From a virus: a stretch of DNA of 40,430 nucleotides. Each line of letters starts with the position of its first letter. The first letter of the stretch is position 1. Both the position numbers and the translations under genes were made by a program. The notes under the pieces were generated by a model. The model worked only from the letters and a program-made list of their open reading frames with translations, did no database searches and was not told where the DNA came from. Shown piece by piece: positions 6,052-40,430 of this stretch. The stretch spans positions 1-40,430 of IMG/VR virus record IMGVR_UViG_3300027749_003914; one strand, written 5' to 3'.

Positions 6052-6245
6052 ACAGCATAGAAAAGATCTGGGCGCGAGCCACCGGTCACCTAATGGGCGA
6101 GTCAGATCATGATCGTCCTGATGTGCCTATTCTTACTTTGCAAGAAGCACGTCTTGCACTATTCCTAAAAACCTTTTGGGTAGCAATACACGTGGTAACC
6201 TGTTGTTTCATTATTGCTGGCGTTGTAAGACACTGGAACAATTAG
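6048..6245 (+). CDS. Small single-pass membrane protein
   Basis: The start is the ATG overlapping the nrdA stop (ATGA), giving 65 residues. The N-terminal 40 are polar and charged, followed by one hydrophobic segment (about 43-60, FLKTFWVAIHVVTCCFIIAGVV) and a short basic tail. I know no function. It ends in TAG, the only complete gene in the window to do so. If TAG were read through, seven codons would be added before a TGA at 6264-6266. Its place between nrdA and an aldolase says little about role. Confidence 0.7.
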   Translation: MNSIEKIWARATGHLMGESDHDRPDVPILTLQEARLALFLKTFWVAIHVVTCCFIIAGVVRHWNN

Positions 6246-17251: not shown

Positions 17252-18631
17252 GTGTCTAAAAAATCCAAAATAGCAGAAGTAGATATTGTAAATCCTGAGC
17301 ATGACAAACTCATGGAGGTGTTAAAGTTTACGCCACGCACATATAAAATTAGCCTGTGGGGTTATGGTGGTGAAAAAGTCATGGGCACTGTAGAACGTGA
17401 TGTATGGGACTACTGCATGGAGAACCAAGTTGACTTGTCCGAGGTTGCTTGGAGTGATGAGGAAACAGTTCAAGATGACATGAACCTTGATGTTGATCGT
17501 TTACCGTTCACGCCTGGCTCGTGGTATGAATGTGATGACATGGCACACACCAATGGTGTTAGCCGTAATGCTGGCACCCTTCAAATCGAAGATGAAAACG
17601 GCACGGTCATATATGAACGGAGATTGGAAGATTGCGATGGTGGCCGTGACGATAGCCCAGAATGGTCATGCAATGACGAAGCCTGGGTTGGCAGTAAGCC
17701 TGCTGGCACAGTGGTGTTCATCGGTACCAGCAATGAAAAAGGCACATTCTTCGAAGGCGAAATCAACCTTACGCAACCTTTTGATATTACCAAACTGACC
17801 CTGGGCTACGATGACATCGACGGTGAAGAACTGGTCAACAGTGTGACCTATGATGATGAAGACATTGACAACTGGGGCGGTAGCACCGATGGTAAGAGCA
17901 GTGACTTTGGCATGTATCTTGTGAAGGATAGTAATTCGTGGGAAACTTATGCGCCAGAAGAAAAAGACTGGGGACATCCTCCGCATGGCACAAGTCCCAG
18001 CACCTGGGAAAAATCTAAAACATTTAAGTTTGATAAAGTCCAACCCACCCTGCCCGGCTACTATAGTTGCACCTGGAAAAACTATGGTACAACGTATGGC
18101 TCAGCCTATTGGGATGGCTCACAGTTCGGCGAATGGGAATACGGTAAGTTCACGCCTATTACAGGAGAGATTGTGTCTTGGTCAGGATACAACTGGGACA
18201 CCGGTTCATGGGTTAATCAACCACCAGAACCGGTAGATGTTGCTTGTGACGATAAAAAATGCGGCTGGGTAGGCATGAGCACTGATCGTCGAGAAGATGC
18301 GGAACACAACGACCATTGTCCACATTGCAATGGCACAGAATTCTCCTGGATTGACTATGATCCTGATACCGCACTGGGCCGCAAGAATCGTGCTAAGTAT
18401 TGTCTAGAGTGGGATCCAGCGGTTTCGTTAGAACGAATCCCAGTCCCAGAAGGATTAAAACTCATCAATTGTGCCTGCAAAGGCTGTGCATGGGAAGGTC
18501 CCATCGACGATACATTAAATAATGCAGACGATGAGATGACATGTCCAGAGTGCAGTAGTTATGTAGAGATTCTAAGCGATGAAGACGAAGCAATGGCCGA
18601 TGCTACCAAGTGGCCAGCAACAAGACCTTAA
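17252..18631 (+). CDS. Acidic protein with two C-terminal zinc ribbons
   Basis: A GTG start with AAAGGAG upstream gives a 459-residue, strongly acidic protein. Residues 25-325 are rich in Asp, Gly and Trp, with repeated strand patterns. The C-terminal part has two likely zinc ribbons: C332/C337 with C356/C359, and C409/C412 with C431/C434. The tail is acidic. No catalytic motif is visible. An acidic body plus zinc ribbons could mean a DNA-mimic or an adaptor contacting host machinery, but this is a guess. BI-1 follows 11 bases after the stop. Confidence 0.72.
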   Translation: MSKKSKIAEVDIVNPEHDKLMEVLKFTPRTYKISLWGYGGEKVMGTVERDVWDYCMENQVDLSEVAWSDEETVQDDMNLDVDRLPFTPGSWYECDDMAHTNGVSRNAGTLQIEDENGTVIYERRLEDCDGGRDDSPEWSCNDEAWVGSKPAGTVVFIGTSNEKGTFFEGEINLTQPFDITKLTLGYDDIDGEELVNSVTYDDEDIDNWGGSTDGKSSDFGMYLVKDSNSWETYAPEEKDWGHPPHGTSPSTWEKSKTFKFDKVQPTLPGYYSCTWKNYGTTYGSAYWDGSQFGEWEYGKFTPITGEIVSWSGYNWDTGSWVNQPPEPVDVACDDKKCGWVGMSTDRREDAEHNDHCPHCNGTEFSWIDYDPDTALGRKNRAKYCLEWDPAVSLERIPVPEGLKLINCACKGCAWEGPIDDTLNNADDEMTCPECSSYVEILSDEDEAMADATKWPATRP

Positions 18632-18642
18632 AGGGGAAAACT

Positions 18643-19332
18643 ATGAATGATACCGTTATATTTAATGATGAACAATACCGTTCAGCAGAACAAATCAACT
18701 CGGCCATGGGTCGTGTTTACGGACACATGAGTCTGGCAGTGATTGTGAGTATGCTGGTCAGTTACTGGGTAGGCACCACACCTGAACTGCTGGCATTCTT
18801 TTTTACAGGTGTGATGAAGTGGATTGTGATCTTTGCACCACTAGCGGCTATATTTGGTGTGAGCATGATGCTGGGCAACGATCCAAGTAAACCCATGGCA
18901 CAGTTATGCCTACATGGCTTTGCGGCCTTGATGGGCCTGAGTTTCTCAATGATCTTTGCTGTGTTTGCCATGGGATCGATTGTGAGTGCATTCATGGGTG
19001 CGGCCATCCTGTTTGGGGTCATGAGTGGGTATGGTTACTTTACCCGACGTAGTTTAGATAGTGTTGGTAAGTTTATGTTTGTGGGTTTGATCGCCATCTG
19101 TATTGCCAGTATTGTGAACATCTTTATTGGCAGCACCGTGATGCAGATGGTGATCTCCGCATTGGCCATCATAATCTTTCTTGGACTCACTGCCTATGAC
19201 ACACAACAGATCCGTGAAGAACTCAGTGTGGAAACTACCGATGCCGCAGAAGTGCGTGGTGCCCTGACCTTGTACATGGACTTTATCAACTTGTTCTTGA
19301 ATTTGTTGCAATTGTTTGGCGATAGAAAATAA
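18643..19332 (+). CDS. Bax inhibitor-1/YccA family membrane protein
   Basis: The family comprises seven-helix membrane proteins. In bacteria YccA modulates the FtsH membrane protease, and BsYetJ moves calcium. The 229-residue protein starts at ATG 18643 after AAGGGGAAA. Hydrophobic helices fill residues 30-205, with the conserved YDTQQIREE near 180 and the typical C-terminal ALTLYMDFINLFLNLLQLFG. The DTQ aspartate belongs to the family's acidic pair. It could protect phage proteins from FtsH or delay lysis (inference); the presence of ClpX and ClpS genes nearby makes protease control the more attractive idea. Confidence 0.88.
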   Translation: MNDTVIFNDEQYRSAEQINSAMGRVYGHMSLAVIVSMLVSYWVGTTPELLAFFFTGVMKWIVIFAPLAAIFGVSMMLGNDPSKPMAQLCLHGFAALMGLSFSMIFAVFAMGSIVSAFMGAAILFGVMSGYGYFTRRSLDSVGKFMFVGLIAICIASIVNIFIGSTVMQMVISALAIIIFLGLTAYDTQQIREELSVETTDAAEVRGALTLYMDFINLFLNLLQLFGDRK

Positions 19333-19909: not shown

Positions 19910-21406
19910 ATGATATTTGGTTTCAGCATCCTGTCCACAGCAATCTTGCTCAGTTGTGTGGCCGCTTATTATTCGGTAGCAGGCTTGACAGCCATCTTCA
20001 GTGCGGCAGCCATACCTGTAATGATCATGGGCGGCAGCCTTGAACTAGGCAAGATTGTGGCCACAGTTTGGTTGCACAACAACTGGCAACGAGTGGGAGT
20101 GTTGTTTAAAGTGTATCTAGTACCTGCAGTGGCATTCCTAATGCTACTCACATCAATGGGAATTTTTGGATATTTGAGTAAGGCCCACTCAGATCAAAGT
20201 TTAGTATCAGGCGACGCAGTAGCAAAGGTAGCAATCTACGATGAAAAGATCAAGATATCTCGTGACAATATTGAAGCCGACCGCCGGGCACTTAAACAGA
20301 TGGATGAGGCTGTGGACCAGGTTATGGGCCGATCAGCAGATGAAAAAGGTGCCGACAAAGCAGTTGCAATACGAAGAGGCCAACAACGAGAACGGGCTAG
20401 GATACTTGCTGACATCGAAACCGAACAGAAAAAGATTACTGGCCTTAATGAAGAGCGGGCACCACTAGCGGCCGAGTTCCGCAAGGTCGAATCAGAAGTA
20501 GGACCAATCAAGTACATTGCGGCCCTGGTGTATGGAGATAACCCTGATTCAAATGTGCTAGAACGTGCTGTGCGACTGGTAATCATCATGATTGTACTAG
20601 TGTTTGATCCACTGGCACTTACACTTATTCTGGCCGCCAACAAACAGTTTGAATGGGCACGGCAAGGCACTGGAGGCTTTGTACATGACAAGCCTGAACC
20701 CGAATCTGAACCCAGGTACGAGCCCGATGATGGCCCACTAACCGAAGATCAAATCACACAATTGCAAGAGATTGCAAAAACACCAGAACCGCCCGACGAT
20801 CCTATACCCTGCTACAAGTGTGGCACACCATTGGTGGACGCTCCGGGTATTGGTTTGTTCTGTCCTAATAAAGAATGTGATGTTATAGACAATGTCAACG
20901 GTGAGGAACCGATTGAGTTAACAACGCCAATTGAAATTGAATACAAGTTCGTAGACGAACATCATGAACCTGATCACGAACCTGATCTACATGTGTATGA
21001 TGACGAACGCTTGGTATCAAACTTTGACAAACAACAGTTGGCGGAACAGCCGTCTGTGTCAGAAAAATCTGCCTGGGACAACTATCTTGGCATACGAGCA
21101 GACAATGATGTCAACATCTTCAAGTCTGGCCTACTAAAAGGATTTGGTATTCGATTCCCTGACGACGCTGTCAAAGGCGATTCATTCATTAGAGTGGATC
21201 AAATGCCCAGTGCCTTGTACAAGTACAATGGCGTGAAGTGGATTGAAGTTGACAAAGGACTCAGTGACCAGTATGCCTACGACACAGCCTATATCGATCA
21301 CCTGATAGAAAAACTCACCACAGGTGAATACGACCCTGAATTATTAAACGACGCAGAAAGAGAACAAGTGGCACAACGCTTACAAACAACCGCAAAAGGC
21401 ATCTAA
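19910..21406 (+). CDS. Membrane protein with coiled coil and zinc ribbon
   Basis: This 498-residue protein has hydrophobic segments at about 5-28, 30-48 and 68-88, a long charged coiled coil (about 100-215) and a further membrane segment (218-243). A soluble tail follows, with a zinc ribbon (C301, C304, C318, C323), a low-complexity acidic/His stretch and a folded C-terminal domain (about 385-490). The first 90 residues resemble, from memory, a conserved membrane protein of T4-like marine phages of unknown role ([32 protein letters not shown]). It may anchor a complex to the host inner membrane. Its stop overlaps the clpX start (TAATG), which hints that it works with ClpX. Confidence 0.78.
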
Positions 21407-22614
21407 TGGCAGCAGATTTGCACAACACCTGCAGTTTCTGCGGCAAGCACAAAGACTCAGTAAAAAAACTCATAGTAGGCGAAAAAGTAGGCATCTGTAA
21501 TGAATGCGTGGACTTTTGTCAAGGTCTTTTGATTGAGGAAACAGTTGAATCCACAACAGTGGATGCTGCCGCTCCGAGAAAACTGGATCCTGTTGTGCTC
21601 AAAGAATATCTAGATCAGTATGTGATCGGCCAAGATTCGGCCAAGATCATGCTGAGTGTGGCCATTGTGAATCATTACAAACGCATCAACAAGACCACTC
21701 TGGAGCCCGAATTAGAAAAAGCCAATGTACTCATGCTGGGCCCCACTGGCTCGGGCAAGACCTTGTTGGCCAAGTCGGTGGCACGTTATCTTGACGTGCC
21801 GTTTGCCATTGCTGATGCCACCAGCATCACTGAAGCAGGCTATGTGGGCGATGATGTGGAAAGTCTTATCACAAGGCTGTATACCGCGGCCGGTGGTGAT
21901 GTGAACAGAACACAACGTGGTATTGTGTTTGTGGACGAGATTGACAAGATTTCCCGCAAGGGCGAAAGTACCAGTATCACAAGAGACGTGTCAGGCGAGG
22001 GTGTGCAACAGGCCCTGCTCAAAATGGTAGAAGGCACTGTGTGTCGCATTCCGGCCGGTGGTGGCCGCAAGCATCCGTCAGGTGACATGATTGAAATTGA
22101 TACTCGGAACATCTTGTTCATTGCCGGCGGCGCATTTGTTGGACTAGATTCGATTGTTAAAAATCGTGTGCAAGGAACAAGTATAGGATTCGGTGCCAAG
22201 GTTGAACGCGACTCAAATGCTGACCTTGCACTTACCACCCCTGACGATCTTGTCAAATATGGCATGATTCCTGAGTTTGTGGGACGTTTTCCTAACTGGG
22301 TTAGTCTGCAAGAACTTAGCAAGCAAGATCTTGTACACATTCTCACTGGTGTGAAAAACAATTTTGTTGAACAGTACAAGTGGTTGTTTGCCGAAGATGG
22401 AGTGGAATTGCAGTTTACAGAATCGGCCCTGGATACCATTGCTGAGCGCACCTTGCTCAACAAAACAGGCGCTCGTGGCCTACACAGCGAACTGGAACGT
22501 GTGCTGATGCCGCACATGTACAATCTCAAAAGATATCCTGCCATGGGCATCAAGTGCGTGGAAATTGCGCCCCACCAGGTAAATATTCCTACAGCACTAG
22601 AAGGCACAAATTGA
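21406..22614 (+). CDS. clpX: ClpX, AAA+ unfoldase of the ClpXP protease
   Basis: ClpX unfolds tagged or native substrates and feeds them to ClpP. The 402-residue protein is complete. It has an N-terminal zinc-binding domain (C9, C12, C31, C34), Walker A GPTGSGKT (112-119), pore loop GYVG (145-148), Walker B IVFVDEID (173-180), RKH pore loop (221-223), the IGF loop that docks on ClpP (260-262) and sensor-2 GARGL (about 357). Because IGF is kept and no clpP is in the window, it most likely recruits host ClpP. The N-terminal domain and the linker differ from typical bacterial ClpX, which may change adaptor choice. Its stop overlaps the bS21 start. Confidence 0.96.
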
Positions 22615-23696: not shown

Positions 23697-24005
23697 ATGT
23701 CGCAAGCAGAAACCGTTGTAACAACAAGAACAAAAACATCCATCAAAGAACCAAGTCTGTATCGGGTGATTTATCTCAATGACAACACAACCACAATGGA
23801 GTTTGTTGTGGAATCCTTGATAGAATTCTTTGGGTATACTGAAGAAACAGCCGCACAAATCACCGTGGCTATACATGACGCAGGATCAGCCACTGTGGCA
23901 GTGTTGCCATGTGAAATTGCCGAGCAAAAAGGCAGTGAAGTTACCACTCACGCTCGAGCGCAGAACTTTCCCCTTCAGATCAGAATAGAACCTGACGTCA
24001 CGTGA
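23697..24005 (+). CDS. clpS: ClpS, N-end-rule adaptor
   Basis: ClpS delivers proteins with destabilising N-terminal residues to ClpAP. The 102-residue protein matches the family: a flexible N-terminus, then LYRVIYLNDNTTTMEFV, ending in a normal ClpS fold. The binding-pocket residues are kept, with Asn28-Asp29, Met34 and His60 at the spacing of E. coli N34/D35, M40 and H66. It may redirect host N-end-rule degradation, or block it by competing with host ClpS. No clpA is in the window. A hairpin and a sigma70-type promoter precede it. It converges on the phosphoesterase gene with no base between the two stops. Confidence 0.93.
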   Translation: MSQAETVVTTRTKTSIKEPSLYRVIYLNDNTTTMEFVVESLIEFFGYTEETAAQITVAIHDAGSATVAVLPCEIAEQKGSEVTTHARAQNFPLQIRIEPDVT

Positions 24006-24833: not shown

Positions 24834-25202
24834 ATGAACATAATATTTGGAACAGAAATGGCTCAACAAGCGCAGGATCGTTACACAGTGCTTGAATTAG
24901 ATACTCTCAATCTAGTACCAACAGGTGAGACAGTCACAGTCTATTGCTTGGTAGAAACAGTGCCCATAACAGAAATGCCTGCTGTGGCGAGTCTACAAGA
25001 TCTGCACTCAAATCTCATGACAGAATATAGAAAACAGAACTGGCACTACTGCGAGGATGCCATTGCACACCTGACCGGCAAATGGCATGGAGAACTCGAC
25101 AGTTTTTATACTGAATTATATCAACGCATACAAGGTCTCAAACAGAATGATCTGTCGGTGGACTGGACTGGTCGAATCGATAAGACTGTCGAAGTTGCCT
25201 AA
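24834..25202 (+). CDS. Hypothetical phage protein
   Basis: The start is supported by AAAAGGAAA upstream. The 122 residues begin MNIIFGTEMAQQAQDRYTVLELDTL and contain HLTGKWHGELDSFYTELYQRIQGL. The pattern is one I associate with a conserved protein of cyanophage-like T4-type viruses, with no function known to me. Its last 65 bases overlap, tail to tail, the end of the split glycosyltransferase-like gene on the other strand, so both ends are coding on both strands. Confidence 0.7.
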   Translation: MNIIFGTEMAQQAQDRYTVLELDTLNLVPTGETVTVYCLVETVPITEMPAVASLQDLHSNLMTEYRKQNWHYCEDAIAHLTGKWHGELDSFYTELYQRIQGLKQNDLSVDWTGRIDKTVEVA

Positions 25203-26541
25203 GATGTAGGGTCGCTATTTTACGTTTACCTCTGATTATGTCTAACATTTTGTTATTTTTCATTAATGTTAGCCATTTTAAATAATGTTTACCCCGAGAC
25301 TTTGTAACTTGTTGTGCGGCCAAATTTAAATTGTTTTTTAGTTCATTTTTGACCTGATTGAAAAACGCATCACTGAAAAAATGTTTCTTATTGAATTCTG
25401 CAATAGATTTCATTTCTTGAAAAAAATCTTCACGTTCTTGACCCTGTAGATTTTGTATCTGTGTCATAGACCACATAATTTTTTCCATGCGTTTAAGACT
25501 GTCGGATTCCTGATCGTAAGACTCATCTATCCAGGGCGCAAAAGTTTTGAATCCATAACTTCTAATGTAATCCAGTGCGCCAGAGCCTGCAGCCAATATA
25601 AAAGGATGGCCACATGCAATTGATTTTAGAGTTTTTTCAGTTAAATGTATTCGACCATCATCAAATACTGTTTCTAATATCACGCTAATCTGAGTTGAGA
25701 TAAAATCAGTATAATCATAATCTGCACTGGATGCACTAGAAACAGTATTGGTAGGAATCAGATCGATCAGTTGCGGATTGTTGAGATTAAATTTGGAATT
25801 TAAAAATTCATAATTTGAAAAATGTACCTCGTCGCTATTGACATGCATTACACTTGTTTGGCTAGCATGATGGAGATTATTTTCTATTAACAATTCCAAG
25901 AACTTCAGTCTGTATTCTCTACGATGACTCCAGTCTCTGCAATAAATTAAAAATACTTTTTGTGGGTTGGTATCTCCGAGTAATCTTGCATCATGTTCAG
26001 CAAATCTATACCAATCTCTGGCTATAATGGCATGTGCCCAATAATGAACACATAAAAATTCATTATTCTGATAATGTTTCAAATCAACCGAATTTTTTTC
26101 AGAATGCACCAAAATAGTCTGGTCATAGATAATGGCATTTCTACGCAATATCTCGGATTTTAAATTAAATTCAGACAAATATTTGTAGTTCAAATTATAA
26201 AACTCTGGAGAAAAAACAATCCAGTTTATGTCATTGTTATTTTTGTCTTCTTTAATAAAATCATCATGAGATTCAAATTTTTCTTTCTAACGCGGTGTAC
26301 TATATTTTTCTTTCCAATATTGTTGCCACTGGACTGGACTGTTATACAGATTCCAGTCCAGTGGCTCTTGATCATGCATAATAACTCCAGGAAGTTGGAA
26401 TTTTGTTTTTAGGTTATATTCCTTCAGCCAAACTAGATCTGAAATTTTTTTACTACCGTGTGGGCGGAATACATAAACACATGCTGGGGTAGGTAATAGG
26501 CCCTCAACCCAGTGGTATAGATTATCTAAAGGAATACTCAT
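25138..26541 (-). pseudogene. Glycosyltransferase-like gene with in-frame TAG
   Basis: Reading the minus strand from the ATG at 26541, 84 codons are followed by TAG (26286-26284) and then, in the same frame, 382 more sense codons to TGA at 25138, a 467-position product if the amber is read. The first part (PACVYVFRPHGSKK, GVIMHDQEPLDWNLYN) and the second (ILVHSEKNS, HYWAHAIIARDW, GRIHLTEKTLKSIACGHPFILAAGSGALDYIRSYGFKTF) look like one phage family; the second has the EKT..A..G.PFI.AG signature seen in exostosin/glycosyltransferase-like proteins. Function is inferred weakly. The gene is AT-rich. The second part could also start from TTG at 26193. No frameshift is needed to join the parts. Confidence 0.62.
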
Positions 26542-27780
26542 ATGAAAAAAATTGGATTTATTGGCATTGGAAAATTAGGGCTAGACTGTGCTGAAGTCAT
26601 GGCAGAGAAGCATGAAGTCAGAGGCTATGATATTTACCCACGAACCAGCAACTCAGTAAAAGTTTGTGACATTGACGAACTTGTGAACGAAAGCGAATGG
26701 ATTTTTATTGCGGTGCCCACACCACATGCAGAAGGCTACGATGGATCAGTTCCTTCAAGTCACATGGAGCCTCGAGACTTTGGACACGACGCTGTGATTG
26801 ATGCCATCCACAAGGTCAATACACATGCCAGATCACCCAAGAAAGTGGTGTTGATCTCCACAGTATTGCCTGGTACCACACGTCGCAAGTTTATTACCTT
26901 GTTGGATGCCAAACACCAGTTCCTGTACAATCCTTACCTGATTGCCATGGGTTCGGTCAAGTGGGACATGGTCAACCCAGAAATGATCATTATTGGTACC
27001 GAAGACGGCAAGATGTCCGGTGTGGCTGGCGAACTGATTGATCTCTACAAAACAGTAATGGAAAATAATCCACGTTACGAATTAGGCACCTGGGACGAGT
27101 GCGAATCAATCAAGATTTTCTACAACACATTTATTTCAGCCAAGGTGGGCTTGGTCAACATGATTCAAGACTTTGCACTCAAAATTGGCAACATCAATGT
27201 GGACGTGGTCACAAGTGCCTTGGCCAATTCGACCATGCGTATCATGGGCTCCAAGTACATGACAGCCGGCATGGGCGATGCAGGTGCTTGCCACCCACGT
27301 GACAACATTGCTCTGCGTTGGTTGGCCAAAGAATACCAAGTGGGCTATGACCTGTTTGACACTGTCATGCATGCTCGAGAAGTACAGGCCAAAAATCTGG
27401 CCTTGTTCCTGGTAGATCAAGCCAAGAGTCGCGGCATGAGCATTGTGATTCACGGCAAGGCCTACAAGCCCGATGTGCCTTACTGTATTGGCTCATACTC
27501 CACCCTGGTTGGTTACTATGTGAAAGAAGCCGGATTTGGTGTACGATATCTAGATCCCTTGGCAGATGATCAAACTGAAGTTATTGCAGAATTGGCAGGA
27601 CCCAGCGTAGTGTTATGGGCACACAACCGCAAGATCACCTATGAATACACAGGCGATCAAGCAGACACACAACCCTACTGTGAGATACCAGCAGGGTCAG
27701 TAATTGTTGATCCCTGGCGCAAACTGCCAGATCTTGACGGGCTGACCGTGGTCCACTATGGCAACACCCGCCATCAATAA
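26542..27780 (+). CDS. UDP-glucose/GDP-mannose dehydrogenase family protein
   Basis: The family oxidises nucleotide sugars to uronic acids with NAD. The 412-residue protein has the N-terminal Rossmann motif GFIGIGKLG (5-13), AVPTP (57-61), the central FYNTFISAKVGLVNM helix and the catalytic cysteine Cys250 in GACHPRDN, followed by GKAYKPD and a C-terminal Rossmann domain. Compared with bacterial Ugd the loops are divergent (GACHPRD rather than GSCFPKD), so the substrate may differ. AAAGGAA precedes the ATG, which abuts the start codon of the minus-strand gene (CATATG). It leads an overlapping run of genes to 30758, perhaps for surface sugar changes. Confidence 0.87.
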   Translation: MKKIGFIGIGKLGLDCAEVMAEKHEVRGYDIYPRTSNSVKVCDIDELVNESEWIFIAVPTPHAEGYDGSVPSSHMEPRDFGHDAVIDAIHKVNTHARSPKKVVLISTVLPGTTRRKFITLLDAKHQFLYNPYLIAMGSVKWDMVNPEMIIIGTEDGKMSGVAGELIDLYKTVMENNPRYELGTWDECESIKIFYNTFISAKVGLVNMIQDFALKIGNINVDVVTSALANSTMRIMGSKYMTAGMGDAGACHPRDNIALRWLAKEYQVGYDLFDTVMHAREVQAKNLALFLVDQAKSRGMSIVIHGKAYKPDVPYCIGSYSTLVGYYVKEAGFGVRYLDPLADDQTEVIAELAGPSVVLWAHNRKITYEYTGDQADTQPYCEIPAGSVIVDPWRKLPDLDGLTVVHYGNTRHQ

Positions 27781-30914: not shown

Positions 30915-33900
30915 GTGTCTATAAAAACTCCATCTCCTGTTGATTCTCCATACGCTACCGCGTCCACCACGCCCACTGTGCTGAATTCAGCACCCGGTGT
31001 ACAAACAGCCGCTGCCGATGTGGCTGTGACTGTTCCTGATGCTGCCAACATATCCTACTATGCCAATGGGCAGGCTGCTATTGACTCCTTGGTGACCACC
31101 AGCAGATCAGGTGTGTTTGCCGGCGCCAATGTCACGTTGTCGGTAACTGAGCAAAATTATCTTACCCAAAACAAAACATTCATTGGCACAGGCAATGGCA
31201 GTGTGGGCGGTTCCAACAGTCAGATACAGTTCAACAACAGTGGCGATTTTGGCGGCAGCGCAAATTTGACATTTGATGGTGCCAATGTTGTGGTATCAGG
31301 TGTGAAAACTGACAACTATTACTATGCCAATGGCACAGCATTCACTGGCGGAACGTATGGCAATGCTAACGTGGTAGCCAACCTGGCTGCATTGGGATCA
31401 AATCCAGTATCAACCACAGGCAATGTAACCGGCAACTACTTCTTAGGCAACGGTTCACAACTCACAGGCATTATTACAAGTTATGGCAATGCCAACGTGG
31501 TAGCCAATCTGGCTGCTTTGGGCACCAACCCTGTATCAACCACAGGCAATGTCTCAGCCAGTTACTTGTTTGGTAATGGTTCACAACTGAGTGGCATTAC
31601 TACAAATTACAGCAACTCAAATGTCAGCGCATTCATGGCTGCTTTTGGTAGCAATACAGTAAGCACAACAGGCGCAGTGACCGCAGGTAATATCACGGGC
31701 GGTAACATCTTGACCGGTGGTTTGGTAAGTTCTACAGGTACCATAACAGGCTCTAGTCATCTGGGTTCAGTTGTATCAGTAACTGCCAACATCACAGGTG
31801 GCAATATTATAACAGCAGGCGTAATCACAGCCACTGGTACTATCACTGGTGGTAATTTAAGTGTTAGTGGCAATGTCTTGGGTAGTCTATTGCCCAGTGC
31901 CAATGTCACATATGACCTGGGCAGTGCCACCCAGGCCTGGCGAGATCTATATCTGTCGGGCAACAGTATCAAACTGGGTGCTCAAACAATCACATCCAAT
32001 GCCACTAGTGTCAGTACAGGCACCGGCAACTTGGTCGGTGGCAATGTTTTAACCACTGGATCAATATCAGCCACATCTACTATCACCAGTGCCGCCACAA
32101 TCACAGGTGGCAATATTGCCACTGCAGGGCAGATCACTTCCACAGGCAACATAACTGGTGGCGGATTGACCATCAATGGCGCAGGTGTGGTCACAGGTAA
32201 CCTACAAATTCAAGGCAACTTGATCTACAACAATTTGACCAACATCACCACGGCCAATCTGGTGTTTGGCCTGGCCAACACTGTGACCGGTATCTCGGCC
32301 AATGGTGCAGGATTTGTTGTGGGCAATACCAGCCAAGCCAGTTTCTTGTACAACTACGGCACACAGCAGTGGAACAGCAACATTGGTATCAGTGCTGTGG
32401 GCAACTTGATTGGTGACAATATATTGACTTCAGGACTGGTGTCTGCGACCGGCAATCTTTATGGTGGTAACGTACTCAATTCAGGTGCAAGTTCAGTTGC
32501 TGGCAATATCACTGGTGGTAACGTATTAACAGCAGGACAGGTGTCAGCCACCGGCAACATCACCGGCAACTACTTCATTGGTAATGGTTCACAACTCACA
32601 GGCATTGTGTCAAGTTATGGCAATGCCAACGTTGTGGCCAACTTGGCTGCTTTGGGCACCAATCCAGTATCAACCACGGGCAACGTCACAGGTGGCAATA
32701 TATTAACAGGTGGCCTAATCAGTTCAACTAGCACCGTAACTGGCTCAAGTCATTTGGGTGCAGTTGTATCAGTCACAGCAAATATTACCGGTGGTAATAT
32801 CTTAACAGCAGGACAGGTGTCAGCAACCGGTAATCTTTATGGCGGCAACGTACTCAATTCGGGAATAAGTTCAGTTGCTGGTAATGTAACTGGCGGTAAC
32901 ATATTAACTGCTGGGCTTGTAAGTGCGACATCGACTATCACTAGTGCGGCCAATATCACTGGTGGCAATATTCTAACAGCAGGACAGGTGTCGGCCACTG
33001 GCAATGTGTCTGGTAACTTCTTCATTGGTAATGGATCACAACTCACAGGATTGCCAGCCACATATGGCAACGCCAATGTGGTGGCCAATTTGGCTGCACT
33101 GGGATCAAATCCAGTATCAACCACAGGTAATATCACAGGCGGCAACTTGATCACAAGCGGTCTAATATCAGCCACCGGCACAGTCACAGGCACAAGTCAT
33201 TTGGGTTCAGTAGTTAGCGTAACTGCCAACATCACAGGCGGTAATGTATTGACAGGTGGCGTGATTTCGGCCACAAGCACAATCACTTCGGCTGCCAATA
33301 TCACAGGTGGTAACATACTCACTGCCGGGCAAGTATCGGCTACCGGCAATCTTTATGGTGGCAACGTGCTCAATTCGGGTGCAAGTTCAGTCACTGGTAA
33401 CATCACAGGTGGCAACATATTAACTGCTGGGCTTGTAAGTGCCACTGGCACAGTTACTGGTTCAAGTTTGCTTGGCTCAGTGGCATCACTAAGTGGCAAC
33501 GTCATTGGTGGTAATTTACGTACCGCAGGTGTAGTCACTGCTACAGGCAACATCACTGGTGGCAACTTGTTGACAAGTGGTTTAATAAGTGCTTCTGCCA
33601 ACATCACAAGTGGTAATTTGTTAACAGGCGGATTGATAAGTTCAACTGGTACTGTGACAGGCTCAAGTTTACTGGGCTCAGTGGCATCGCTAAGTGGCAA
33701 TGTCACTGGTGGTAACATCGTAACTGCTGGACAGGTCAGTGCCACTGGCAACTTGTATGGCGGTAATTTAAGCATCACTGGCAATGTACTGGGTAATCTG
33801 TTGCCCAGTGCCAACATCACATATGACCTGGGCAGTGCCACTCAGGCCTGGCGAGATCTATATCTGTCAGGCAACAGTATCAAACTGGGTGCGGCCACAA

Positions 33901-36900
33901 TCACTTCCTCAGGAACCGCAGTCAGCATGGGCACCGGCAATGTCAGCAGTGGCAATTTGACCACAGGTGGATTAATATCATCAACTGGTAACGTTATTGC
34001 TGGTAATGTGTTAACTGCCGGCGTGATATCAGCCACTGGCACAATAACCACAGGTTCGGACATCAGTCTAGTGGGCAACATCGTTGACACTGGCACGTTC
34101 TGGCTCAACACCACTGCCAATGGCAACATCAATTTGAATCCCAATGGTTCGGGACAAACCAATATACCAGTGGGTATTCTCAATGTCACTGCCAATATCT
34201 CGGGTGGTAATGTGTTAACTGGTGGGCTAGTGAGTGCTACAGGCAATGTAACTGGAGGCAACATACTCACTGTGGGATTAATTTCGGCCACTGCCAACAT
34301 TACAGGTGGCAATGTGCTAACTGCTGGGTTGATATCAGCCACAAGCACTATCACCAGTGCTGCCAACATCACTGGTGGTAACATCATAACTGCTGGACAG
34401 GTCAGTGCCACAGGCAATGTCACTGCTGGCGGATTAACAATCAATGGCACAGGTGTGGTCACAGGCAACTTCCAAGTTCAAGGTAATTTGACTTACAACA
34501 ACTTGACAAATATCACCACAAGCAATTTGGTATTTTATCTAGCCAACACCACAACAGGTATCTCAGCCAATGGTTCAGGAATCGCAGTTGGCAATACCAG
34601 CGAAGCAACATTCTTGTACAACTACGGCACACAGGCCTGGAATAGCAATATTGGGATCAATGCTGTGGGCAATGTCACTGGCGGCAACATCAACACCGCA
34701 GGTGTGATCACAGCCACTGGTAACATAAATGGTGGTAATTTAAGAACTGCTGGCGTGATCACAGCCGCTGGAAACATCCAGGGCGGCAACATCTTGACAG
34801 GTGGATTAATATCTGCCACTTCAACTATCACCAGTGCTGCCAACATCACAGGTGGTAATGTATTAACTGCTGGGCTTGTAAGTGCCACGGGTACTGTGAC
34901 TGGCTCAAGTTTACTAGGCTCAGTAGCATCACTTAGTGGTAATGTCACAGGTGGTAATCTATTGACAGGTGGATTGATCAGCGCAACATCAACCATTACT
35001 TCAGCGGCAAATATCACAGGTGGCAACTTGCTAACAGGTGGACTTGTAAGTGCCACATCGACCATCACCAGTGCCGCCAATATCACAGGTGGTAACATCT
35101 TGACTGCTGGCCTGATGAGTTCAACTGGCAACGCTATCCACGGCAATATCTCGACAGGCGGACTTGTAAGTGCTACTGGAACTGTGACTGGTTCAAGTTT
35201 GTTAGGTTCAGTAGTATCTGTCACTGCCAACATCACAGGTGGTAATATCTTAACTGCTGGTGTTGTATCGGCTACAGGCAATGTGTCTGGTAACTTCTTT
35301 ATTGGTAACGGATCACAACTGACAGGTATTGCGGCTTCATATGGCAACACCAATGTGACCACATTGTTGAGTACTTTGGGCAGTAACATTATTAGTGGAA
35401 CTGGCAATATCACAACAACTGCCAACATCTCGGGCGGTTATATCCTGGGTAATGGTTCACAGTTGACTGGATTACCAGCAAATTATGGCAATGCTAACGT
35501 GGTGGCCAACTTGGCTGCACTGGGATCAAACCCTGTGTCAACCACAGGTAACATAACAGGTGGCAATCTATTATTTGGGTCTGGAATTGTCACCGGCACA
35601 GGCAACATCACTGGCGGTAATTTATTGACAGGTGGGTTGATATCAGCCACTGGCACTGTGACTGGAACCAGTCACCTGGGCTCAGTTGTATCTGTCACTG
35701 CCAACATTACCGGCGGTAACATCTTAACTGGCGGCTTAATTAGTGCTACATCAACTGTCACCAGTGCGGCCAATATTACAGGTGGTAATATTATCACCGC
35801 TGGACAGGTGTCGGCCACTGGTAACATCTCAGGCAGTTTCTTTATTGGCAATGGCTCACAACTGACAGGGCTTGCCGCAACATATGGCAATGCTAACGTG
35901 GTGGCCAACTTGGCCGCGCTAGGCACTAACCCAGTATCAACCACTGGCAACGTAACTGGTGGCAACTTATTGTTTGGTTCTGGAGTTGTCTCTGGCACAG
36001 GTAACATCACAGGTGGCAATGTATTGACTGGTGGATTGATCACAGCAACTGGCAACATAACCGGTGGCAATTTACTAACAGGTGGTCTCATGTCCAGTAC
36101 AGGTAATGCCATACATGGTAACATCTTGACCGGTGGCTTGATATCAGCCACAGGCAATGTCACTGCCGGCAACGTATTATTTGGCGCTGGTATTGTAAGT
36201 GGTACCGGTAACATAAACGGTGGCAATTTAATTGGTATCTACGCCAACGGCACCAGTAACATCTACATTCCTACTGCCAGTGGCAATATCAACTTCAGTG
36301 CCAATGCTATTGCCAACATACTGATCATCACGACCACTGGTAATTTAATAGCAAGCGGCAACGCAAGTGTCACAGGCAACATCACTGGTGGTAATGTGCT
36401 GTTTGGATCAGGTGTTGTTTCGGGCACAGGCAATATCACTGGTGGTAACATCCTAACTGCTGGATTGATTAGTGCAACTGCCAATGTAACCGGTGGTAAC
36501 TTAATCACAGCAGGTTTGATAACTGCCACAGGTAACATTACCGCTGTGGCCAACATTGCTGGTGGTAACATCCTAACTGCTGGCATTATGAGTTCAACAG
36601 GTAATGCCACACATGGCAACATACTAACTGCTGGTTTAATAAGTGCTACTGCAAATATTACAGGTGGTAACGTGCTATTTGGAACTGGCATAGTTTCGGG
36701 CACTGGCAACATATATACTGGCAATTTGATTGGCGTACATGCCAATGGCAACAGCAACATCAGTATTCCTGCTGCCGCCGGCAACATCAACTTCAGTGCC
36801 AACGGCAATGCCAATGTGTTGATTTTGACCACAAACGGTAACTTGATATCAGCCGGTAACTTTATTGGTACCTTGGCTAATGGCAACAGTAATATCAGTA

Positions 36901-37349
36901 TTCCTAGCGCCAACGGCAACATACTGTTTAGTGCTGCCGGCACTGCCAACGTGATGCAGGTAAACACCGGAGGTATTGTGGCCAACGTGTTGGCACCCAC
37001 CACAGCAACTCCTGCCAACGGTGTGGGTTACATAGGCATGCCAGTGAGTACTGTTACAGGAACAGGTACACTGACCATTGTGGATGCTGGCAAACTTGTT
37101 TACATCACCGGCGCCAGCCAGACTGTGACCATTCCTGCCAACGGTTCAGTGGCATACCCAATAGGAACTGCCATAACATTCATTGCTGGACCTGCGTCAA
37201 GTGCCACCAGCATTGCTATCACAACAGACACCATGTACCTGGCAGGCACAGGGTCAACCGGCACAAGAACAATGGCTGCCAACGCCATGGCCACAGCAGT
37301 CAAGGTCACAAGTACTGTCTGGTACATCAACGGAACAGGACTGTCATAA
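30915..37349 (+). CDS. Giant repeat-built tail fibre protein
   Basis: A GTG start after AAAAGGG gives a 2144-residue protein, the largest in the window and probably a receptor-binding or long tail fibre. Residues 1-95 form a distinct N-terminal part (SIKTPSPVDSPYATASTTPTV...), likely for attachment to the tail. Most of the rest is built from units of the type NITGGNILTAGLVSATG, about 17 residues, interspersed with YGNANVVANLAALGSNPVSTTG (six copies) and with two copies of LLPSANVTYDLGSATQAWRDLYLSGNSIKLGA. The regular Gly-Asn turns suggest a beta-solenoid or triple-stranded fibre shaft. The C-terminal 120 residues (GYIGMPVSTVTGTGTLTIVDAGKLVYITG) look like a globular tip. Its stop overlaps the next start (TAATG). 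Confidence 0.9.
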   Translation: MSIKTPSPVDSPYATASTTPTVLNSAPGVQTAAADVAVTVPDAANISYYANGQAAIDSLVTTSRSGVFAGANVTLSVTEQNYLTQNKTFIGTGNGSVGGSNSQIQFNNSGDFGGSANLTFDGANVVVSGVKTDNYYYANGTAFTGGTYGNANVVANLAALGSNPVSTTGNVTGNYFLGNGSQLTGIITSYGNANVVANLAALGTNPVSTTGNVSASYLFGNGSQLSGITTNYSNSNVSAFMAAFGSNTVSTTGAVTAGNITGGNILTGGLVSSTGTITGSSHLGSVVSVTANITGGNIITAGVITATGTITGGNLSVSGNVLGSLLPSANVTYDLGSATQAWRDLYLSGNSIKLGAQTITSNATSVSTGTGNLVGGNVLTTGSISATSTITSAATITGGNIATAGQITSTGNITGGGLTINGAGVVTGNLQIQGNLIYNNLTNITTANLVFGLANTVTGISANGAGFVVGNTSQASFLYNYGTQQWNSNIGISAVGNLIGDNILTSGLVSATGNLYGGNVLNSGASSVAGNITGGNVLTAGQVSATGNITGNYFIGNGSQLTGIVSSYGNANVVANLAALGTNPVSTTGNVTGGNILTGGLISSTSTVTGSSHLGAVVSVTANITGGNILTAGQVSATGNLYGGNVLNSGISSVAGNVTGGNILTAGLVSATSTITSAANITGGNILTAGQVSATGNVSGNFFIGNGSQLTGLPATYGNANVVANLAALGSNPVSTTGNITGGNLITSGLISATGTVTGTSHLGSVVSVTANITGGNVLTGGVISATSTITSAANITGGNILTAGQVSATGNLYGGNVLNSGASSVTGNITGGNILTAGLVSATGTVTGSSLLGSVASLSGNVIGGNLRTAGVVTATGNITGGNLLTSGLISASANITSGNLLTGGLISSTGTVTGSSLLGSVASLSGNVTGGNIVTAGQVSATGNLYGGNLSITGNVLGNLLPSANITYDLGSATQAWRDLYLSGNSIKLGAATITSSGTAVSMGTGNVSSGNLTTGGLISSTGNVIAGNVLTAGVISATGTITTGSDISLVGNIVDTGTFWLNTTANGNINLNPNGSGQTNIPVGILNVTANISGGNVLTGGLVSATGNVTGGNILTVGLISATANITGGNVLTAGLISATSTITSAANITGGNIITAGQVSATGNVTAGGLTINGTGVVTGNFQVQGNLTYNNLTNITTSNLVFYLANTTTGISANGSGIAVGNTSEATFLYNYGTQAWNSNIGINAVGNVTGGNINTAGVITATGNINGGNLRTAGVITAAGNIQGGNILTGGLISATSTITSAANITGGNVLTAGLVSATGTVTGSSLLGSVASLSGNVTGGNLLTGGLISATSTITSAANITGGNLLTGGLVSATSTITSAANITGGNILTAGLMSSTGNAIHGNISTGGLVSATGTVTGSSLLGSVVSVTANITGGNILTAGVVSATGNVSGNFFIGNGSQLTGIAASYGNTNVTTLLSTLGSNIISGTGNITTTANISGGYILGNGSQLTGLPANYGNANVVANLAALGSNPVSTTGNITGGNLLFGSGIVTGTGNITGGNLLTGGLISATGTVTGTSHLGSVVSVTANITGGNILTGGLISATSTVTSAANITGGNIITAGQVSATGNISGSFFIGNGSQLTGLAATYGNANVVANLAALGTNPVSTTGNVTGGNLLFGSGVVSGTGNITGGNVLTGGLITATGNITGGNLLTGGLMSSTGNAIHGNILTGGLISATGNVTAGNVLFGAGIVSGTGNINGGNLIGIYANGTSNIYIPTASGNINFSANAIANILIITTTGNLIASGNASVTGNITGGNVLFGSGVVSGTGNITGGNILTAGLISATANVTGGNLITAGLITATGNITAVANIAGGNILTAGIMSSTGNATHGNILTAGLISATANITGGNVLFGTGIVSGTGNIYTGNLIGVHANGNSNISIPAAAGNINFSANGNANVLILTTNGNLISAGNFIGTLANGNSNISIPSANGNILFSAAGTANVMQVNTGGIVANVLAPTTATPANGVGYIGMPVSTVTGTGTLTIVDAGKLVYITGASQTVTIPANGSVAYPIGTAITFIAGPASSATSIAITTDTMYLAGTGSTGTRTMAANAMATAVKVTSTVWYINGTGLS
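31356..36850 (+). repeat. Degenerate protein-level repeats of the fibre shaft
   Basis: Long repeats occur at about 31356, 31480, 32617, 33062, 35484 and 35882 (YGNANVVANLAALG unit) and at about 31891 and 33799 (DLGSATQAWRDLYL unit), between many shorter GNITGGN units. Copies are close in protein but differ at many synonymous positions, for example GGTAATATT against GGCAACATC for GNI. The same short unit occurs in the partial gene at 39085. Confidence 0.85.
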
Positions 37350-39084: not shown

Positions 39085-40430
39085 ATGAGCAACGTTAAAT
39101 TTAGTCAACTGCCCAACCTAGGCAATATCACAGCCAACACCATAGTACCTGTGGTCTCAGCCGGTACCAACTACACTGTCACAACTGCCAACCTACAAAG
39201 TTATGTAAACAGTAGCACAGGCAATGTCACTGCTGGCAACATACGCACCGGCGGCCTAATCAGTGCTACAGGCAATGTCACCAGTGGCAATGTCAGCATT
39301 GTTGGTGGTACCCTGGCATTTGCCAATTCAAGTATTGTACAAAGCAATCCCTTGGATTTGTCAATAACTGGTGTGTATCAAATCAGTGTGAAACCTGCAG
39401 GAGGATCTTATCAGTGGACTTTTGGCAACGATGGTGCCTTGACCGGACCAACTGGTCTGGGAGTCACTGGCTACGTATCAGCCGGTGGTAATGTCACTGC
39501 TGGCAACATAAGAACTGCTGGCCTGGTTTCCGCTACAGCCAATATCACAGGTGGTAACATACTAACAGCGGGACTGGTCAGTGCTACGGGCAACATCACC
39601 GGTAACTATGTCCTGGGCAACGGTGCGCTGTTGACTGGTGTTATCACCAGCGTGGCCAACATCAATTCTGGTACATCAAACGTCACAGTGGTCAGTAGTG
39701 GTGGCAATATCACCGTGGGAGTAGGCGGTACATCAAATGTGGCTGTGTTTGCCACCACAGGCGAATACATAACTGGCGTAGTCTCAGCCAGCGGCAACAT
39801 TACAGGTGGTAATATAATTACAGCAGGGTTGATCACAGCCACAGGAAATATCACAGGCGGCAACATCGCAGCCACAAGCATTGCAGGTACGTTGACCACA
39901 GCCGCACAGACAAACATAACTTCAGTTGGTACACTAAGTGCATTGACGGTGACAGCAAACGTCACAGGCGGTAATGTGCTAACAGGTGGATTGATTTCAG
40001 CAACAGGCAATATTACAGGTGGCAATGTCAGTGCTACATTATTAAGTGGAACCACAGTAAGTGCCACTGCCAATGTTGTAGGCGGCAACATTACAACTGC
40101 TGGTGTAATCACAGCAACAGGTAACATCACTGGTGGTAATATCGCAGCCACCAACCACACAGGTACCACTGTCAGCGTCGCAGGCAATGTCACAGGTGGC
40201 AATGTTCTAACAGGTGGCGTGATTTCTGCAACTGCCACAATTACCGGTGGTAATTTGGCCACGGCAGGCACAGCATCAGCAACAGGTACAGTAACTGGTG
40301 GCAATGTGCTGACCGCTGGTATAATGAGTTCAACTGGCAATGCCACTCACGGCAACATACTCACTTCGGGTTTAGTAAGTGCTACGGCCAATGTCACGGG
40401 CGGCAACATCTTGACTGCTGGGTTGATCAG
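39085..40430 (+). CDS. Second repeat-built tail fibre protein, partial
   Basis: The frame from ATG 39085 stays open to the window end (448 codons and more). It opens with MSNVKFSQLPNLGNITANTIVPVVSAG, a typical N-terminal attachment segment of phage fibres, then a segment QWTFGNDGALTGPTGLG (about 110), and then the NITGGNILTAGLVSATG-type repeats of the first giant fibre. It is a paralogue in its shaft, with a different N-terminus. The 3' end is missing, so the full length is unknown. Confidence 0.85.
   Translation, partial: MSNVKFSQLPNLGNITANTIVPVVSAGTNYTVTTANLQSYVNSSTGNVTAGNIRTGGLISATGNVTSGNVSIVGGTLAFANSSIVQSNPLDLSITGVYQISVKPAGGSYQWTFGNDGALTGPTGLGVTGYVSAGGNVTAGNIRTAGLVSATANITGGNILTAGLVSATGNITGNYVLGNGALLTGVITSVANINSGTSNVTVVSSGGNITVGVGGTSNVAVFATTGEYITGVVSASGNITGGNIITAGLITATGNITGGNIAATSIAGTLTTAAQTNITSVGTLSALTVTANVTGGNVLTGGLISATGNITGGNVSATLLSGTTVSATANVVGGNITTAGVITATGNITGGNIAATNHTGTTVSVAGNVTGGNVLTGGVISATATITGGNLATAGTASATGTVTGGNVLTAGIMSSTGNATHGNILTSGLVSATANVTGGNILTAGLI

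Follow-up and report, generated by a model that had tools for sequence, protein, structure and literature searches.

An isolated in-frame TAG codon in a putative glycosyltransferase gene of an uncultured phage

The interrupted gene and its predicted product

The DNA analyzed here, which we call the window, is the whole of a 40,430-bp uncultured phage record (the complete virus record), and it is probably a fragment of a genome. On its minus strand, a reading frame extends from an ATG at 26541 to a TGA at 25140-25138, and this frame (25138-26541) is open throughout except for a single TAG. The TAG, at 26289-26287 on the same strand, is codon 85 out of 468, a total that includes both the TAG itself and the terminal TGA. 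A preliminary description of this DNA had likewise reported one amber codon in an otherwise open minus-strand frame, but its position for that codon, 26286-26284, is three bases off: since the coordinates of the upstream ORF, 26287-26541, include that ORF's own stop, the TAG must occupy 26289-26287. The description was right in holding that no frameshift is involved and that the gene is otherwise intact. The entire 468-codon frame aligns without gaps to positions 772-2175 of an intact homologue, L001, and this alignment contains no second lesion. Because the whole frame can be aligned in this way, we conclude that it does not consist of two ORFs juxtaposed by chance.

The stop divides the gene into an N-terminal fragment of 84 residues (26287-26541, minus strand, stop included) and a post-stop frame of 382 codons plus the terminal TGA (25138-26286, minus strand). 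Residues that are invariant across the family are found on both sides of the stop: M1, P4, L8, Y9, G29, D57-Q58-E59 and L61 precede it, and many more follow it, including H146, E148, W168, R202, R208 and E302-K303. The first possible re-start past the stop is a TTG at 26193, which opens an ORF of 351 amino acids (25138-26193, minus strand) in a weak ribosome-binding context.

Neither half of the gene, nor the protein that would result from read-through, has a match in Pfam or PHROGs. An AlphaFold2 model of the intact L001 copy, computed from a 64-row alignment, attained a pLDDT of 89.9 and a pTM of 0.88. When this model was compared with solved structures using Foldseek, most of the top matches were GT-B proteins (e.g., glycogen synthase and WaaG), with a best E-value of 7.7e-4 and low TM-scores of about 0.3; among viral models, the matches were to uncharacterized proteins of Caudovirales and, at a weaker level, to glycosyltransferases of giant viruses. 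On account of these structure matches, the assignment of the product to the GT-B glycosyltransferases is supported at the level of the predicted fold, in a Caudovirales family that is absent from Pfam and PHROGs, which agrees with the glycosyltransferase-like character proposed earlier. From the predicted fold we infer an activity in sugar transfer. The product shares a GT-B-like predicted fold, as well as a conserved C-terminal E-K motif region, with GT-B enzymes such as glycogen synthase, WaaG and BshA in the PDB and the phage protein A0A6J5LWJ0 in BFVD, but it differs from the solved enzymes in having no Pfam or PHROG match and only low global TM-scores.

The head-to-head neighbor of the gene, at 26542-27780 on the plus strand, is a UDP-glucose/GDP-mannose dehydrogenase. 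The starts of the two genes stand back to back within 26520-26560, so that CAT is directly followed by ATG, and the ribosome-binding site of the dehydrogenase, AAAGGA, is antisense to codons 4-6 of the glycosyltransferase. The silent sites of these three codons are nearly fixed in relatives (CCT in 56 of 64, TTA in 57 of 64, GAT in 53 of 64), and the two starts abut exactly in 31 of the 64.

Homologues and the ancestral codon

A scan of viral contigs with the gene itself yielded 43 relatives, and many more were added when the two flanking genes served as queries. Not one of 65 non-redundant homologues, each with coverage of at least 80%, contains an internal stop; all are single, uninterrupted proteins. 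The same holds for homologues of the flanking genes, with no internal stop in 110 copies of the dehydrogenase or in 74 copies of the phosphoesterase. The apparent stops in two family members from other records, G020 and G021, proved to be the terminal stops of intact ORFs. The preliminary description had considered that the homologues might normally be two separate proteins with a stop at this point; we reject such a two-gene split, as no split homologue occurs among the 65.

Alignment to full-length homologues, a check that had been proposed earlier, finds the whole frame collinear and a tryptophan codon in the two closest. The closest, L001, is a gapless 468-codon homologue that is 82% identical and has TGG at codon 85. 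The second, L128, is of the same length and 71% identical, and its TGG at codon 85 lies inside the conserved stretch RWKEKFE. Since both relatives have TGG at this codon, we conclude that tryptophan is ancestral, and that the TAG arose on the window's own branch. The inferred change from TGG to TAG is a G-to-A substitution on the coding strand, or C-to-T on the plus strand. Codon 85 falls in an insert of about 30 residues that the window shares with L001 and L128 alone and that is a gap in 61 of the 64 aligned proteins. AlphaFold2 confidence across this insert is low (60-70).

A pattern scan that permitted either codon at the site returned L001 only, and no second record of the window's virus. 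No cultured phage matched the family, and bacterial genomes held no relative of it. Records of relatives reach 370 kb, and those of large relatives contain as many as 10 matches to the family each (for example, the records behind L016, L018, L150 and L133); no paralogue of the glycosyltransferase was found within the 40-kb fragment. The matches in the large relatives point to a phage family of GT-B glycosyltransferases, still without a name, that has expanded in large uncultured phages.

Selection around the stop and its possible explanations

Between the window and L001, dN/dS is 0.18 upstream of the stop and 0.21 downstream. When changes past the stop are polarized with L128, the window's branch carries 36 silent and 37 replacement substitutions, and the branch to L001 carries 38 and 35. 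The share of the window's branch that evolved without constraint is estimated as 0.09, with a 95% upper bound of 0.24. Because the substitutions on the window's branch match those of its intact sister, the lesion is either very recent, or suppressed, or an error. An old pseudogene is rejected, given that selection past the stop is not relaxed and there is no further lesion. The gene has the profile of a recent nonsense allele: the sense codon is ancestral, the rest of the gene is intact, and there is no relaxation. Unrelaxed constraint, however, is equally what one expects of a recent allele, of a consensus error and of a suppressed stop.

Overall, the most likely explanation is an ordinary one: the gene is intact apart from a nonsense change of recent date or an erroneous base. 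A fresh C-to-T mutation or an assembly error had been among the options offered in the preliminary description, and of those options it fits best with the tryptophan codon in the closest relatives and the unrelaxed constraint. We favor a real and recent nonsense allele, Trp85 to TAG, in a phage glycosyltransferase gene, with a probability of roughly 0.6 that reflects judgement rather than calculation. Under this reading, a single-base change would recently have converted Trp85 to TAG in the genome of an uncultured tailed phage. Translation would then stop after 84 residues, within the N-terminal Rossmann-like domain, presumably leaving an inactive fragment, so that the phage, or part of its population, would be without the glycosyltransferase. 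Several paralogues exist in large relatives, and if the window's own genome has a similar redundancy, as is assumed from those relatives, the phage may tolerate such a loss. Sugar modification in phages, moreover, is often useful only under some conditions, which might also make the loss tolerable. The allele could be either fixed or a polymorphism caught in the consensus.

The main rival reading is that the metagenome assembly has the wrong base here, through a miscall or in the consensus, in which case the phage itself has a sense codon and an intact gene. In the assembled sequence such an error and a real allele give an identical picture, and the TAG is a lone, unsupported change in one record, within a gene that is otherwise intact and normally constrained. 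If we assume between 1e-5 and 1e-4 errors per base, one or more nonsense errors would arise somewhere in the window's genes with a probability of about 1.5-14%. Real lesions are similarly rare (an internal stop in 0 of 249 comparable gene copies). Against an error, the window has no second sign of low quality, and its comparable genes contain no other interior stop. We regard an error as possible but somewhat unlikely, and this, too, is a judgement and not a calculation.

The constraint past the stop, being equal to that of the intact sister, also accords with a TAG that is read through, whether through leaky termination or with the help of a suppressor tRNA such as a mutated tRNA-Trp of the phage, so that the full-length enzyme is made. 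Many residues might be tolerated at codon 85, given its place in a variable insert that is modeled with low confidence. In-frame stops with dN/dS below 1 are widely reported from bacteria; Belinky et al. 2021 (PMC7918605) interpret them as read-through where the stops are orthologous. Their genes resemble the present one in having a single in-frame stop, an intact remainder and purifying selection on both sides. In the genes for which read-through is backed, however, the stop occurs at orthologous positions of several genomes, whereas the stop in the window occurs in one record only and is conserved in none of the 65 homologues. Furthermore, this is the only such TAG, and the other genes are without it.

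The tRNA genes provide no positive support for suppression, an option that the preliminary description had raised. No tRNA gene was found in the window. In four large relatives, the tRNA clusters comprise 71 tRNAs and two tmRNAs; a tRNA-Trp(CCA) gene, a potential source of such a suppressor, is present in each of the four, but none of the 71 tRNAs has a CUA anticodon. A search of the five closest longer records likewise revealed no CUA tRNA; these records yielded no tRNA of any kind and may themselves be fragments. Read-through by one or another of these routes is, in our view, improbable. For its most specific form, in which the TAG is decoded, e.g. as tryptophan by a copy of the large relatives' tRNA-Trp whose anticodon has mutated to CUA, we see only a very slight chance; if it were true, the glycosyltransferase would be the one phage gene whose expression needs an amber suppressor from the phage or its host. 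In two of the related large phages, L235 and L237, the tRNA cluster includes a tmRNA gene with the tag ANAANDEVFALAA.

The part of the gene downstream of the stop might also be expressed alone, from an internal start such as the TTG at 26193, to give a functional protein of 351 residues. The ORF is open, and a partial Shine-Dalgarno-like AGAG stands nine bases 5' of the TTG. Such a protein, however, would lack every invariant residue from M1 to L61 listed above and, according to the AlphaFold2 model, strands 1-3 of the N-terminal domain, and homologues split in this manner are absent. We therefore consider re-initiation highly improbable. The suggestion that the stop represents a phase-like off state finds no support either: only one base is altered, with no change of repeat length and no inversion.

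Stop-codon usage and other genes of the window

Among the 43 gene calls of the window, 23 terminate in TGA and 20 in TAA. The sole TAG terminator belongs to a doubtful ORF of 71 amino acids ending at 6245, which bears out the earlier remark that TAG is hardly used as a stop apart from the gene ending there. Eight ORFs of at least 100 amino acids end in TAG, but all are on the minus strand, at coordinates antisense to plus-strand genes, and none corresponds to a gene call. No second interior stop occurs in the 43 gene calls, or in those genes of the window for which tblastn allowed a comparison with close relatives. The latter search, of relatives' ORFs against the window, was limited to annotated frames; its unrestricted version was swamped by antisense shadow ORFs.

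The rarity of TAG as a terminator is what one might see if the phage decoded TAG as an amino acid, as in genetic code table 15. We give such a reassignment next to no chance, in accordance with the preliminary description, which had thought genome-wide recoding unlikely. Only one in-frame TAG occurs across 43 genes and some 12,400 codons, the coding fraction under table 11 is 0.88 (ORFs of at least 100 amino acids), like that of the relatives, and TAG terminates genes in those relatives. Recoded phages have a low coding density under table 11, and about half of TAG-reassigned phages contain a Sup-CTA tRNA (PMC11210395). The window resembles the table 15 phages (Crassvirales and Lak phages; PMC11210395) in being from an uncultured phage with a TAG inside a gene. 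It differs from them in having one such TAG rather than many, in its normal coding density, and in that its TAG stands opposite tryptophan and not glutamine; a Sup-CTA tRNA was found neither in the window, which is probably a fragment, nor in the tRNA clusters of the relatives.

As it stands, a single nonsense codon of this kind, in the record of one metagenomic phage, matters little. It is useful as a verified case: when an uncultured phage shows one in-frame TAG on its own, homologues should be consulted before any proposal of recoding.

Several other genes of the window deserve mention. Two overlapping candidate genes at 3-714 appear to encode IscU-type and IscA-type Fe-S assembly proteins, and they are followed at 714-2015 by a weak radical SAM match. 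A phage-encoded membrane protein of the Bax inhibitor-1 family (PF01027, E-value 9.6e-53) lies at 18610-19332. Candidate genes for ClpX and its adaptor ClpS, identified by reading of the sequence, are located near each other at 21406-22614 and 23697-24005. Very long tail-fibre-like proteins, composed of repeated units of the type TGNITGGN(I/V)LTAGL(I/V)SATG, are encoded at 30915-37349 and at 39085-40428, and the second of these continues past the end of the window.
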